Positions 2,963 through 45,581 of a stretch of DNA of 45,581 nucleotides are shown here, one piece after another; within the stretch, counting starts at the first letter, position 1, and every line of letters starts with the position of its first letter. The stretch spans positions 1 through 45,581 of IMG/VR virus record IMGVR_UViG_3300009788_000153; one strand, given 5' to 3'. This DNA is from a virus. Under the pieces are notes generated by a model that saw only the letters and a program-made list of their open reading frames with translations, did not search any database and was not told the origin of the DNA. The translations under genes were made by a program, and so were the position numbers.

Positions 2963-2992
2963 TTGACATTTCTATTATATTATGAGTATAAT
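2963..2992 (+). promoter_or_regulatory. Promoter with embedded operator, cargo operon
   Basis: TTGACA (2963-2968), 18 bases, TATAAT (2987-2992): both hexamers are perfect sigma70 consensus. Overlapping the spacer and -10 is the dyad ATTATATT-ATG-AGTATAAT (2974-2992), with one mismatch between arms. The same dyad, in the same orientation and place, occurs in the promoters at 39166-39195 and 44730-44758. A repressor bound here would block RNA polymerase. Upstream, GGGATATCCC (2897-2906) is a separate 10-bp palindrome of unknown role. Confidence 0.8.
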
Positions 2993-3039: not shown

Positions 3040-3264
3040 ATGAAAACAGCATATGCGATACACCCGGCCCTTAAGAATGCCAAAGGAGAGTATATACCCA
3101 TCATTGTGAAGGAAGGACAGACAGGTTATTATCTCACTGATTGGGCATGGGGCAAAGATCTTGATGAGGCAGAGAAAATAGCAAGGGCCAAGAATAGAGC
3201 CATGGGCATATCTGATGCATTGACCCAGCGTTTAATCCTTGCTTCTATGAGAGAGAGTCTCTAA
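3040..3264 (+). CDS. Small protein of unknown function, first gene of cargo operon
   Basis: A 74-residue protein starting at ATG 3040, nine bases after a strong CAGGAGGG ribosome-binding site and about 45 bases after the operator-bearing promoter. It contains an aromatic, charged middle (YYLTDWAWGKDLDEAEKIA) and a basic C-terminal helix. There is no signal peptide or membrane segment. It overlaps the next gene by one base, so the two are translationally coupled and may work together. I do not recognise a family; the small single domain resembles other phage accessory proteins. Confidence 0.65.
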   Translation: MKTAYAIHPALKNAKGEYIPIIVKEGQTGYYLTDWAWGKDLDEAEKIARAKNRAMGISDALTQRLILASMRESL

Positions 3265-4166
3265 TGGCAAAGCTAACCATTCTGAGTTTTGGGGGAGGGC
3301 AGGACAGCACTGCCCTCCTATACAAATATATCTATGATGCAGACTTCCGCGCCAAGTATGCTCCGGAGGACTTCCTTGTGATCATGTCTGACACTGGAGA
3401 TGAGCATGGCTCCACATATAAGCATGTGCATTTCACTGAGCAGCTCTGCAAGGAGCACTCTATCCGTTTGGTATTCATTACTGAGGACATGGGATATCAT
3501 GGATCCTGGGGCAACCTGAGATCCTTCATGAGGAGGACCAATACAATATTCTCCAAGGCTTTTCCAAAGACATGCACTGACAAGCTCAAGCTCAGGCCCA
3601 TTTATAATTACCTTGAAGATCATATCAAGCGGACATATTACTATGGCCCAGATATTCCCTCAAGTCCAAAGATGGCTTACAAGGAATTTGCAGCTACTCA
3701 TGGAAAGATTGATGTCATGATTGGCATAGCTAAGGGAGAGGAAAAGCGCCTGCCGGATCCAGCCAAAGCAGACAAGCTCCCGAAGTGGCAGCAGGCCTCC
3801 ATCAACAAAGTGTATCCTCTGATTGATCTGGGCTTGGACCGGCAGGGCTGTCAGGATTATATCCGCTCTGTGGGCCATGCAGTGCCATCTCCGAGCAATT
3901 GTGTACTCTGCCCATGGCTCAATGAGACTGAGCTTGTTTATCTCTATAAATTCCACAGGACGGATTATGAGGAGTGGGTACAGCTCGAGCAAAACAAGCT
4001 GGATGCCAATGCTCATATGGGAGATAAAAACCTTGGAGTCTGGGGATCCAGAAAGACCCTCCCTCAGAAACTTGAGGAGGCCCTTGAGAAACACGGCCAC
4101 ATGACTGATGAGGCCCTGCAGGAATATAAAATGAGCCATGGCCATTGTGTGGCCAGTAAGTATTAA
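3264..4166 (+). CDS. PAPS-reductase-like ATP pyrophosphatase family protein
   Basis: A 300-residue protein with the PP-loop signature of N-type ATP pyrophosphatases near its start (SFGGGQDS, 8-15). This is the adenylating loop seen in PAPS reductases, DndC and thiolation enzymes. Cysteines in the C-terminal half (CVLCPW, near 212-217, plus TCTDK near 113) could bind metal or sulfur. Phage members of this family are common but mostly uncharacterised. It may activate a substrate for sulfur transfer or reduction; DndC-like phosphorothioation is less likely because no DndB, D or E homologue is present. It is coupled to the preceding small gene (ATGG/TAATGG overlap). Confidence 0.8.
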   Translation: MAKLTILSFGGGQDSTALLYKYIYDADFRAKYAPEDFLVIMSDTGDEHGSTYKHVHFTEQLCKEHSIRLVFITEDMGYHGSWGNLRSFMRRTNTIFSKAFPKTCTDKLKLRPIYNYLEDHIKRTYYYGPDIPSSPKMAYKEFAATHGKIDVMIGIAKGEEKRLPDPAKADKLPKWQQASINKVYPLIDLGLDRQGCQDYIRSVGHAVPSPSNCVLCPWLNETELVYLYKFHRTDYEEWVQLEQNKLDANAHMGDKNLGVWGSRKTLPQKLEEALEKHGHMTDEALQEYKMSHGHCVASKY

Positions 4167-37875: not shown

Positions 37876-38019
37876 TCAGTCCTTTCCCTCAAGATCCGCT
37901 TTCATTGCAATGAAGGTCAGGCAGGACCCGCATTTATCCTCCAATGTATTGAGGCGCTCCGTGCATTGTATGCAGATGTTTTCCGAGATCCAACTATCAT
38001 CATAGTTGTCAACTTTCAT
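37876..38019 (-). CDS. 47-residue zinc-finger-like protein
   Basis: A short ORF from ATG 38019 with CIQC and CGSC, a four-cysteine zinc pattern. AAAGGA lies nine bases upstream. The frame before this ATG has no better start. It overlaps the upstream gene's end and lies close before the next. Very small, but with the zinc pattern and the operon position it is probably real. Confidence 0.55.
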   Translation of the reverse strand: MKVDNYDDSWISENICIQCTERLNTLEDKCGSCLTFIAMKADLEGKD

Positions 38020-38335
38020 GGCTTTTATCCTTTCTTGACGGCATAGGAGCGCCTGCATGTGCAGCAGCCAAGATCTCAAAGAGTCTATCAGAGCCATCCT
38101 CTTTCACTACCTGAGCAGCAAGAAAACTCATGAGTTGGCTCAAAGTCTTTAAGCCATTTTCTCTCATGATCTTTCTTGCACATCTATACATAGGAGGAGA
38201 AAGGATAATCTTGGGCTCTGTCTGATGATGGCTGGCATTCTTTATGAGCTCCTTGGCATCATGGATATCCTGAATGATATCTTGAGGGCCTGAATCTTCC
38301 CAGCCGGACGCTGTTGATCTGTTTGTCTTTCTCAT
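38009..38335 (-). CDS. Helical hypothetical protein
   Basis: A 108-residue protein: a polar N-terminus, then helices with LSPPMYRCARKIMRENGLKT and LSQLMSFLAAQVV. The ATG 38335 overlaps the previous stop (ATGA). It ends within the next small gene. No motif recognised. Confidence 0.55.
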   Translation of the reverse strand: MRKTNRSTASGWEDSGPQDIIQDIHDAKELIKNASHHQTEPKIILSPPMYRCARKIMRENGLKTLSQLMSFLAAQVVKEDGSDRLFEILAAAHAGAPMPSRKDKSHES

Positions 38336-38676
38336 CTCTGTCTCTTGCCTCCCTTGCGTTTGAATTTCCTCATGATTCTCCGTTTGCGGATATTCTCCAT
38401 GACAAGCTCGAATAGCAATGAAGCTTTCTCCTGAGTGAAGCCACATTGGACAACCTTTTCTATTACAATAGGAGCAGCTTTCACTGCCATAAGATGAGGG
38501 ATGTGTTTTAGATTATATACAGCCATGGCCGCCGGGAAAGTCTCCATTGCTGCCTTGGCCCACATGGTTTTTGCCTGTAGATTTAATCCAGCTTGGACTC
38601 CCTTGTCCACTGCAACTTTTAAAGAAGCATTGATCTTTTTGAGATCAATTGGTCCAATTGTTATCTTTTTCTCCAT
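38332..38676 (-). CDS. Basic helical hypothetical protein
   Basis: A 114-residue protein with a hydrophobic helical middle (MWAKAAMETFPAAMAVY) and a very basic C-terminus (RKRRIMRKFKRKGGKRQR), which may contact nucleic acid or membrane phospholipids. ATG 38676 behind GGGAGAGG is chosen over 38697. It overlaps the next gene by four bases. Confidence 0.6.
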   Translation of the reverse strand: MEKKITIGPIDLKKINASLKVAVDKGVQAGLNLQAKTMWAKAAMETFPAAMAVYNLKHIPHLMAVKAAPIVIEKVVQCGFTQEKASLLFELVMENIRKRRIMRKFKRKGGKRQR

Positions 38677-38686
38677 AGCCTCTCCC

Positions 38687-38833
38687 CTATTTTGCAACTG
38701 CCATCACAATACAGGTGATAACCGATGCCACAAGCCAAGCTATCAGAGCGGCCACTGGCACAAGTATCTCAAAATGAAGGCCGGCAAAGACGGCCATCCA
38801 TAAACAACCTACACAAAAGATCCTTTCTATCAT
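38687..38833 (-). CDS. 48-residue two-span membrane protein
   Basis: A short ORF with two hydrophobic stretches separated by HFEILVP. Its ATG overlaps the upstream stop (ATGA). It is too short for many gene finders. Possible roles include membrane association of early proteins or an inhibitor of a host factor. Unknown. Confidence 0.55.
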   Translation of the reverse strand: MIERIFCVGCLWMAVFAGLHFEILVPVAALIAWLVASVITCIVMAVAK

Positions 38834-39141
38834 GACCCTTTCTCCTTGTCCAGTTGAAATAAAAAGTTATAGACATCCGCAACAATAAATGGATCCTGAT
38901 GCTTGGACTCCTGCAAGCTCTCCATCATCCATTTATGGCCTCTGTTGAGGAGCTCCAGCATCTCATCAGCTTTTTTGTCCAGCTGAGGATGATCTGTCTC
39001 CAGCCGTATATCAAAGGCAGTCTCATTTGGATCATGAGGATCCATGGCTCCAAAGCCAACAGACTTTTTAGTGAGTATTATCTCTTCCATATGGAGCTTG
39101 GCAAATCGCCGGCCATTCTTTAAAAAGATAATCCTTGTCAT
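38830..39141 (-). CDS. Hypothetical protein, first gene of modification operon
   Basis: A 103-residue protein with a strand-rich start (TRIIFLKNGRRFAKLHMEEI) and two C-terminal helices. It begins 25 bases after the -10 of the operator-bearing promoter, with AAAGGAGAGG before ATG 39141. Being first in the operon, it is probably the earliest expressed. No family recognised. Confidence 0.6.
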   Translation of the reverse strand: MTRIIFLKNGRRFAKLHMEEIILTKKSVGFGAMDPHDPNETAFDIRLETDHPQLDKKADEMLELLNRGHKWMMESLQESKHQDPFIVADVYNFLFQLDKEKGS

Positions 39142-39165: not shown

Positions 39166-39195
39166 ATTATATTCTATTCATAATATAATAGTCAA
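39166..39195 (-). promoter_or_regulatory. Promoter with embedded operator, modification operon
   Basis: On the minus strand: TTGACT (39195-39190), 18 bases, TATAAT (39171-39166). The dyad ATTCTATT-CAT-AATATAAT on the plus strand (39171-39189) has one mismatch between arms and the same centre as at 2974 and 44736. It lies inside the end of no gene and only three bases from the HD gene's stop. Confidence 0.8.
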
Positions 39196-43917: not shown

Positions 43918-44370
43918 ATGAAGATAACCACGCGAGAGCAGTTTTTATATAGAAACGCGATCATTGATGATGTCCTTGCAAAGTATAATTTCCCATCCAG
44001 ACAAATCCGCGTCCTCCTCCATATAATGAGAAAAACATTGGGTTTCAATCAGACTCATTTTTATGCCGCTGTCAGGGATATCTCCAGGGCCACTGGCCTC
44101 CAGATCTCTCACACTCATAAAACAATTAAGGCGCTGGAGGCAAAAAATATTATTGCCACAAGGCCAACAACAAGAAAGACTCATATTGAGCTCAATGTGG
44201 ATTATATGAGCTGGAGGCTCAAGGAGCCAGACACATTATTTACGGGGAACGGAGTGTTCCCCCCGGAGGGAACGCCGAGTGTTCCCCCCCAGGGTAACGC
44301 TTTTTCTGACAAAGAAAGGCGCGAAGGACTTGCAAGAGTTAGGAAGTTGATAAAATCATTGCCCTCATAA
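43918..44370 (+). CDS. Replication initiator, lambda O-like
   Basis: A 150-residue protein with the O-type winged helix (QIRVLLHIMRKTLGFNQTHF, ISRATGLQISHTHKTIKALE, about 29-80). The C-terminus is short, so it keeps the origin-binding domain but lacks most of the part with which lambda O recruits helicase. Repeats in its coding sequence at 44244-44299 look like its own binding sites. TATAAT lies five bases upstream of ATG 43918. No helicase loader or primase gene was found nearby. Confidence 0.8.
   Translation: MKITTREQFLYRNAIIDDVLAKYNFPSRQIRVLLHIMRKTLGFNQTHFYAAVRDISRATGLQISHTHKTIKALEAKNIIATRPTTRKTHIELNVDYMSWRLKEPDTLFTGNGVFPPEGTPSVPPQGNAFSDKERREGLARVRKLIKSLPS
44244..44299. other. Candidate replication origin (iterons inside O-like gene)
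   Basis: GGGGAAC-GGAGT-GTTCCCC (44244-44262) is a perfect dyad. From 44253 two 22-base units starting AGTGTTCC and ending AACG (44253-44274, 44278-44299) repeat 25 bases apart; inside the first, GTTCCC and GGGAAC form another dyad. Lambda keeps its origin iterons in O at a similar relative place. AT-rich sequence lies downstream (44371-44470). Confidence 0.7.
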
Positions 44371-44553: not shown

Positions 44554-44703
44554 CTACTTTTTAGGCTTACGGCCAAGCAATTTGAGAATGGCCAACTTAA
44601 CAACTCTGCTGTCATTCTCTATGCCATGTTTTTTCTTGTACTCGTCAAGAGCTTCTCTCTCATCAACCGTTAAAGATGTTATGACATTGCCTCCCTGGGC
44701 CAT
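44554..44703 (-). CDS. Ribbon-helix-helix (Arc/MetJ-type) repressor candidate
   Basis: A 49-residue ORF with the RHH pattern: a single strand (GNVITSLTV), helix A (DEREALDEYKKKHG) and helix B (NDSRVVKLAILKLLGR), with a basic tail. Such proteins dimerise and bind short inverted repeats. AAAGGAGG lies nine bases before ATG 44703. It has its own operator-bearing promoter and its own terminator, so it forms a single-gene unit. It is the best candidate to bind the dyad shared by three promoters. Confidence 0.78.
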   Translation of the reverse strand: MAQGGNVITSLTVDEREALDEYKKKHGIENDSRVVKLAILKLLGRKPKK

Positions 44704-44729: not shown

Positions 44730-44758
44730 ATTCTATTCTATTCATAATAGAAAGTCAA
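44730..44758 (-). promoter_or_regulatory. Autoregulated promoter of the RHH gene
   Basis: On the minus strand: TTGACT (44758-44753), 17 bases, TAGAAT (44735-44730). The 17-base spacer is exactly the perfect dyad TTCTATTATGAATAGAA. Binding there would block the polymerase completely, so the gene probably represses itself. Confidence 0.85.
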
Positions 44759-44763
44759 CTGCT

Positions 44764-44793
44764 CAGACATATTGAATGGAAATTTGGTATAAT
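44764..44793 (+). promoter_or_regulatory. Extended -10 promoter for leaderless gene 44799
   Basis: CAGACA (44764-44769), 18 bases, TGG-TATAAT (44785-44793), a perfect extended -10. It ends five bases before ATG 44799, so the start of transcription would lie at the ATG. No ribosome-binding site is visible. Confidence 0.55.
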
Positions 44794-44798
44794 GTGAT

Positions 44799-45503
44799 AT
44801 GGCTTCAAATGATTTATTTAAAATATCAGCGCCTGATCTAATCAACCTGAGACGCTTCTATAAAAGAGCTCCAAAACAATTCACTTTTGCTGTGGCCAAT
44901 ATGCTCAATTCATTTGCTTTCGGGACCAGGGAGCAGGCCCTCAAGGTCCTCAAGGGATCTATGACTATAAGAAATCCGCGCTTTGTATCCAAGATGTTGA
45001 GAGCCCAGACCGTGAAAGGCTCAACCCCCATAGCCTCACAGAAAGCCCTTGCAGGATCGCTCGAGAGCCAGAGATTCACTGGATGGTCAGAGCAGGAGCT
45101 TGGCACAGCGCCTAAGAAAACGCGGACAGCATCTCTCTTTGCAAGGGCAGGGCAACATGCTAAACAAATGAAGCGCAAGGCAAGACTCCTCCCAGGCACA
45201 AAGTATATGACCCCTGATGATGTCAAGGGAAAGAATGCTCATCACAGAGCGGTTGTGTTACTCATAATAACCAACCGAGAACGGAGCAAGGAGCCCTTTG
45301 TTATCAAGGGACATGATACTCTCATGGATGGACTCTATCAATGGGCTGGCAAGGGTAAGCTCAAGATGCTGCAGACCTTTGAGGAGGCCAAGAGACCAAA
45401 GAAGTTGGATTGGTTGACAAGGGCGCGCAAGCGATATTTCAACAAGACAAACATCACAAGCCTCTGGGAAAAGACTCTCAAGCGGACACTCAAGCTCAAA
45501 TAG
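44799..45503 (+). CDS. Putative minor tail / tail completion protein (gpZ-like)
   Basis: A 234-residue basic protein. Its N-terminal half (RAPKQFTFAVANMLNSFAFG, SMTIRNPRFVSKMLRAQTVK) resembles in layout the lambda minor tail protein Z family, which joins tail and head. It is placed upstream of terS once the genome is circular, not among the tail genes. No ribosome-binding site is present but there is an extended -10 immediately upstream. Other roles, such as DNA binding, are possible. Not a known enzyme. Confidence 0.5.
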   Translation: MASNDLFKISAPDLINLRRFYKRAPKQFTFAVANMLNSFAFGTREQALKVLKGSMTIRNPRFVSKMLRAQTVKGSTPIASQKALAGSLESQRFTGWSEQELGTAPKKTRTASLFARAGQHAKQMKRKARLLPGTKYMTPDDVKGKNAHHRAVVLLIITNRERSKEPFVIKGHDTLMDGLYQWAGKGKLKMLQTFEEAKRPKKLDWLTRARKRYFNKTNITSLWEKTLKRTLKLK

Positions 45504-45566: not shown

Positions 45567-45581
45567 ATTTAGATCGCGAAC
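45567..45581. repeat. Terminal direct repeat, right copy
   Basis: Exact copy of bases 1-15. Joining the copies makes one continuous non-coding stretch of about 350 bases between the stop at 45503 and terS at 291. That stretch would hold the packaging site and the late promoter. I saw no convincing gene in it. Confidence 0.8.

Follow-up and report, generated by a model that had tools for sequence, protein, structure and literature searches.

Arc of phage P22 and CopG of plasmid pMV158 are small autonomous DNA-binding proteins of about 45-53 residues; Arc acts within a lysogeny immunity region, and CopG sets plasmid copy number. SvtR of the Sulfolobus rod-shaped virus SIRV1 is a very small ribbon-helix-helix (RHH) autorepressor that recognizes an imperfect inverted repeat in the promoter of its own gene and also binds at three further sites, its strongest site being a late structural gene (PMC5569661). 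In SIRV2, a regulatory sequence common to aca8, which codes for a predicted winged helix-turn-helix protein, and other early genes precedes 11 of 13 early genes, and the regulator was proposed to shut them off (PMC11065993).

The 49-residue protein described here is encoded by a contractile-tailed phage. It resembles Arc and CopG in length and, as predicted, would share their strand-helix-helix order, but detectable sequence homology to either protein is absent, and the immunity region of Arc has no counterpart in this phage. With SvtR it would share the character of a tiny viral RHH repressor whose own promoter, like further sites, carries an inverted repeat, binding being predicted in our case, although SvtR belongs to an archaeal virus with archaeal promoters and favors a late structural gene. 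As with aca8, a virus-specific regulatory sequence is common to the putative regulator gene and other, presumably early, genes; here, however, the protein is RHH-like, three promoters are concerned, and no anti-CRISPR gene was recognized. SvtR and the early sequence of aca8 are two viral precedents for the logic of a self-limiting repressor. Our main reading, to which we give a probability of roughly 0.5, is that the 49-residue protein is a dimeric RHH autorepressor limiting a small early regulon through three promoters, and overall the analysis points to a repressor that limits its own synthesis and that of a few other phage genes, and not to a lysogeny switch. The gene is real, has clear boundaries and is of an ordinary kind, and it belongs to the very small sort often lost to length cut-offs; the added value lies in the proposal of a concrete three-site regulon in a phage without recognizable lysogeny genes.

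The 49-codon gene and its setting

The analyzed DNA (the window) is a single virus record of 45,581 bases that carries the terminase, portal, protease, capsid, sheath, tape measure and baseplate genes of a contractile-tailed phage. Family scans placed the structural genes, from terminase to baseplate, rightward from 291 to ~30,000, and methylase, radical-SAM, nucleotide and beta-clamp genes are read in the leftward direction, from ~43,400 to 34,200. Since the 15-bp ends are identical (ATTTAGATCGCGAAC; positions 1-15 and 45567-45581), the near-identical record L002 (100% identity over 12,865 bases) starts at the same base as the window, and the terminase is of the lambda kind, the genome, whose record is called linear, is probably complete with filled-in cohesive (cos) ends. 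An O-like replication gene was identified by family scans at 43918-44370 on the plus strand. It contains a pair of 24-bp direct repeats separated by 25 bp (44252-44300), which resemble lambda-type origin iterons.

The original prediction had singled out an unlisted ORF, which lies between this gene and a divergent tail gene (44799-45503, plus strand), and the ORF was confirmed on the minus strand at 44554-44703, with an ATG start and 49 codons (MAQGGNVITSLTVDEREALDEYKKKHGIENDSRVVKLAILKLLGRKPKK). The signals ascribed to it were also found as described. The Shine-Dalgarno sequence AAGGAGG (44719-44713, minus strand) lies 9 nt 5' of the ATG, and an intrinsic terminator with a 13-bp stem and a T tail (44541-44512, minus strand) follows immediately 3' of the stop codon. 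The gene's own sigma-70 promoter, promoter A (TTGACT-17-TAGAAT; 44730-44758, minus strand), has its hexamers at 44758-44753 and 44735-44730, and its whole 17-bp spacer (TTCTATTATGAATAGAA) is an operator-like perfect inverted repeat, TTCTATT-3-AATAGAA (44736-44752), with 7-bp arms and a 3-nt centre. More ATAGA pentads are found downstream of this repeat.

The combination of these signals was compared with 300 dinucleotide shuffles. ORFs of at least 45 codons with AAGGAGG before an ATG numbered 11 in the window against a mean of 0.22 per shuffle; with a terminator as well, the 49-codon gene stood alone in the window, and no such case arose in the 300 shuffles. Its in-frame codon score of 0.31 bits per codon ranks first among 151 ORFs of 40-60 codons and is on par with the best known genes. 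Because of the Shine-Dalgarno sequence, promoter, terminator, shuffle counts and top codon score, the ORF is a real, monocistronic gene. The proposal that it lies in a replication control region holds for one side, where the O-like replication gene is near, but only partly overall, as the other side is occupied by the probable first late gene.

Relation to ribbon-helix-helix proteins

No homologues of the 49-residue protein were found in the phage, plasmid, viral-contig and genome collections or in the records of relatives, so that conservation provides no evidence for it. A weak match to the phage MT835590 falls within a large unrelated gene, and matches to the solved structure 8fje_A (E 0.015), to DUF6576 and to phrog_14875 were weak or partial and were left out. 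No RHH family model in Pfam or NCBIfam matched the protein, and a one-genome search with PF01402 and PF12651 gave no match; genuine RHH proteins likewise barely match one another.

AlphaFold2, run on the single sequence as a monomer, predicted helices at residues 13-26 and 32-42 with a break at G27 (mean pLDDT 70), a layout that would correspond to that of RHH proteins. The model contained no strand, and a Foldseek search with it gave no match. Profiles were then built from 30 RHH domains taken from genomes. In the gapped HMM the protein scored 2.6 bits in the wrong register, and Arc likewise scored 2.6 bits, making this profile uninformative for both. In the ungapped profile, residues 6-45 scored 5.5 bits in the expected register, and equally good scores were reached by 8 of 5000 and 54 of 20001 shuffled sequences (p ~0.002-0.003), showing that position-specific RHH residue preferences are present beyond composition. 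The register assigns NVITSLTV to the strand, DEREALDEYKKKHG to helix A, IEND to the turn and SRVVKLAILKLL to helix B, and an L077-type domain (VTVTLDEELVAEVDTLMRERGYQNRSEAIRDLTRSGL) shows the same spacing without gaps in our own alignment.

The protein is thus likely, but not proven, to belong to the RHH class. The RHH pattern originally claimed has moderate support, from the predicted helices and the ungapped profile, and matched no RHH family model; the comparison with Arc/MetJ proteins yielded the right register in the ungapped profile but not in the gapped HMM.

A motif common to three promoters

A search with the spacer of promoter A led to a near copy at 39172-39188 and then to a third site at 2975-2991, which together define the operator-like motif TATTATGANTANAAT. 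Exactly three copies occur in the phage against 0.003 expected from shuffling, and three against 0.02 when the motif has to lie behind a TTGAC hexamer that is correctly spaced from a TAnAAT hexamer. Having been obtained with a motif defined after inspection, these figures are post hoc, yet they are fairer than a matrix trained on the same three sites, which scores 26-28 at these sites and 16.5 at the next. Other promoters with a TTGAC hexamer in this phage (11717, 31696, 31896, 43533) do not contain the motif. A relaxed form of the promoter motif was found in 34 viral contigs with one match each, which we take as chance except for the near-identical phage. Against this background of single matches, a phage with three copies is unusual.

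Each copy lies inside a strong promoter. Besides promoter A, these are promoter B (TTGACT-18-TATAAT; 39166-39195, minus strand) with its dyad at 39172-39188, and promoter C (TTGACA-18-TATAAT; 2963-2992, plus strand) with its dyad at 2975-2991. Behind promoter B lies a 103-residue gene to which no function was assigned (38830-39141, minus strand), the first of a leftward run that also includes a gene for a hydrophobic, probably membrane-located, peptide of 48 residues (38687-38833, minus strand). Promoter C precedes a moron-like operon (3040-4166, plus strand) composed of a 74-residue gene and a PAPS-reductase-like gene (phrog_424). An operator-like site inside the gene's own promoter thus recurs at further promoters, as in autoregulated repressors. 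Repression of promoters, as originally put forward, is plausible and is strengthened by the motif at exactly two further promoters, with binding and repression being putative on the basis of sequence.

Promoters A and B are alike at 25 of 27 positions, and the flanking AGAAAC..GAAAGGAG is common to both down to the Shine-Dalgarno sequence, a likeness that may reflect a duplicated promoter block. Lytic viruses are known in which early promoters have a sequence block in common (PMC11065993), and A, B and C could all be such a duplicated strong early-promoter block, in which the motif would be mere promoter sequence and the 49-residue protein, RHH or not, would act elsewhere or not at all here. 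We consider this unlikely, as promoter C has diverged and yet its dyad is kept: the arms read TTCTA/TAGAA in A, TTATA/TAGAA in B and TTATA/TATAA in C, and between A and C they change together, by matching changes on both sides. Moreover, sigma-70 promoters normally tolerate most variation in the spacer, whereas it is the most conserved part here.

The motif could also be the operator of another protein, either a host factor or the product of one of the leftward genes that follow promoter B (38009-38446, minus strand), with the 49-residue gene merely one of its targets. This product is a possible second RHH protein, and its RHH-like segment (EPKIILSPPMYRCARKIMRENGLKTLSQLMSFLAAQVVKE) scores as well as the 49-residue protein (6.9 bits, reached by 18 of 3000 shuffled sequences), but the call is weak (pLDDT 47). 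The promoter of a small regulator gene typically contains the operator of that regulator, and the 49-residue gene is monocistronic behind site A, which argues against this assignment; we hold it to be quite improbable. Our favored candidate for the binder of the shared motif is the 49-residue protein itself.

For such an autorepressor, the following sequence of events would apply. Soon after infection, host RNA polymerase would read the strong promoters A, B and C, and promoter A would yield the 49-residue protein, which would act as a dimeric RHH DNA-binding protein. The N-terminal strands of its two subunits (about residues 6-12) would form a beta ribbon reading the dyad TTMTA-N7-TAKAA at the spacer between the -35 and -10 hexamers. 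As the protein accumulates, it would block RNA polymerase and so silence promoter A together with promoters B and C. The regulon would be limited to the repressor's own gene, the gene at 38830-39141, perhaps with genes behind it, and the PAPS-reductase operon. If this is true, the early genes of the phage can be recognized by the motif, and among them are two small genes without assigned function that could act on the host.

The original prediction further suggested that the protein takes the place of a cI-type repressor. Its divergent position near a replication gene and its own promoter with an operator-like repeat would suit a repressor or switch that controls lysogeny in a temperate phage. 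However, no match to a tyrosine integrase (PF00589), a resolvase (PF00239) or HTH_3 (PF01381) was found in the phage, although the integrase search was positive in the relative G011 and in 14 controls. Family scans of the phage's other genes likewise revealed no integrase, lysogeny gene or lysogeny module in a genome that looks complete, and an integrase is also absent from the near relatives; the machinery of a temperate phage was thus not found. In addition, the motif promoters drive the 49-residue gene, the small leftward gene and the moron-like operon, and the replication genes are not among their targets. The cI-type role was accordingly abandoned as very unlikely.

The right-end junction in related phages

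The divergent neighbour of the 49-residue gene at 44799-45503 encodes a minor-tail-like protein (phrog_4688) and is a conserved right-end gene. A related terminase is encoded by 44 viral contigs, and the tail gene is also found at the corresponding end of the four long relatives G004-G007 as well as in records G011 and G016. Because of this recurrence, the late operon probably begins with this gene and would continue across the joined ends of the genome to the terminase genes. A promoter-like site with an extended -10 (CAGACA-18-TATAAT; 44764-44793, plus strand) would place its start point at or beside the ATG of this gene. The gene lacks a Shine-Dalgarno sequence, and with the TATAAT 5 nt ahead of the ATG its transcript may be leaderless. 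In G007, TTGACA-17-TATAGT is found 6 nt before the matching ATG.

Leftward genes divergent from the tail gene are also present in relatives, where they encode a protein above the Pfam ParG cut-off in G007 (IMGVR_UViG_3300009509_000039), an HTH_17 protein in G005 and a zinc-ribbon-like protein in G006; none is homologous to the 49-residue protein. The adjoining gaps are rich in short repeats, with 11 GTAACA repeats upstream in G007, and these junction repeats may be replication iterons. Like our gene, the G007 gene points leftward, away from the right-end tail gene, codes for a small DNA-binding protein (a probable one in our case) and adjoins a gap that contains repeats, but its product has 185 residues, the repeat is GTAACA, and detectable homology to the 49-residue protein is absent. 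An RHH gene of the ParG type at this divergent position speaks for the regulon reading.

Antitoxin and partition roles are both known for RHH proteins, and the ParG match at the same junction could indicate that the 49-residue protein is an antitoxin or a ParG-type partition protein. Since the gene is monocistronic with its terminator directly 3' of the stop codon, a partner toxin gene is absent, and Pfam scans of the non-structural genes revealed no ParA-type ATPase, which leaves little room for either role. Returning to the autorepressor, we tentatively extend it by analogy with the role proposed for Aca8 in archaeal viruses: an orphan RHH protein might serve as a general brake on the early regulon of a virulent cos-type myovirus, its motif might mark host-takeover or anti-defence genes (38830-39141 and 3040-4166), and the late-operon side might be a regulator slot that related phages have filled anew with DNA-binding proteins of unrelated families, a generalization that we regard as possible but doubtful.

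Arrays of 12-20 bp repeats were also observed beside the right-end tail gene in three relatives, L065 (700-1220), L063 (900-1620) and L067 (4850-5500). Their repeats are AAGTGGTCAGAG, GTGATCTAAAT and TAACCCAGTGG, respectively, and the arrays are perhaps origins or operator arrays.
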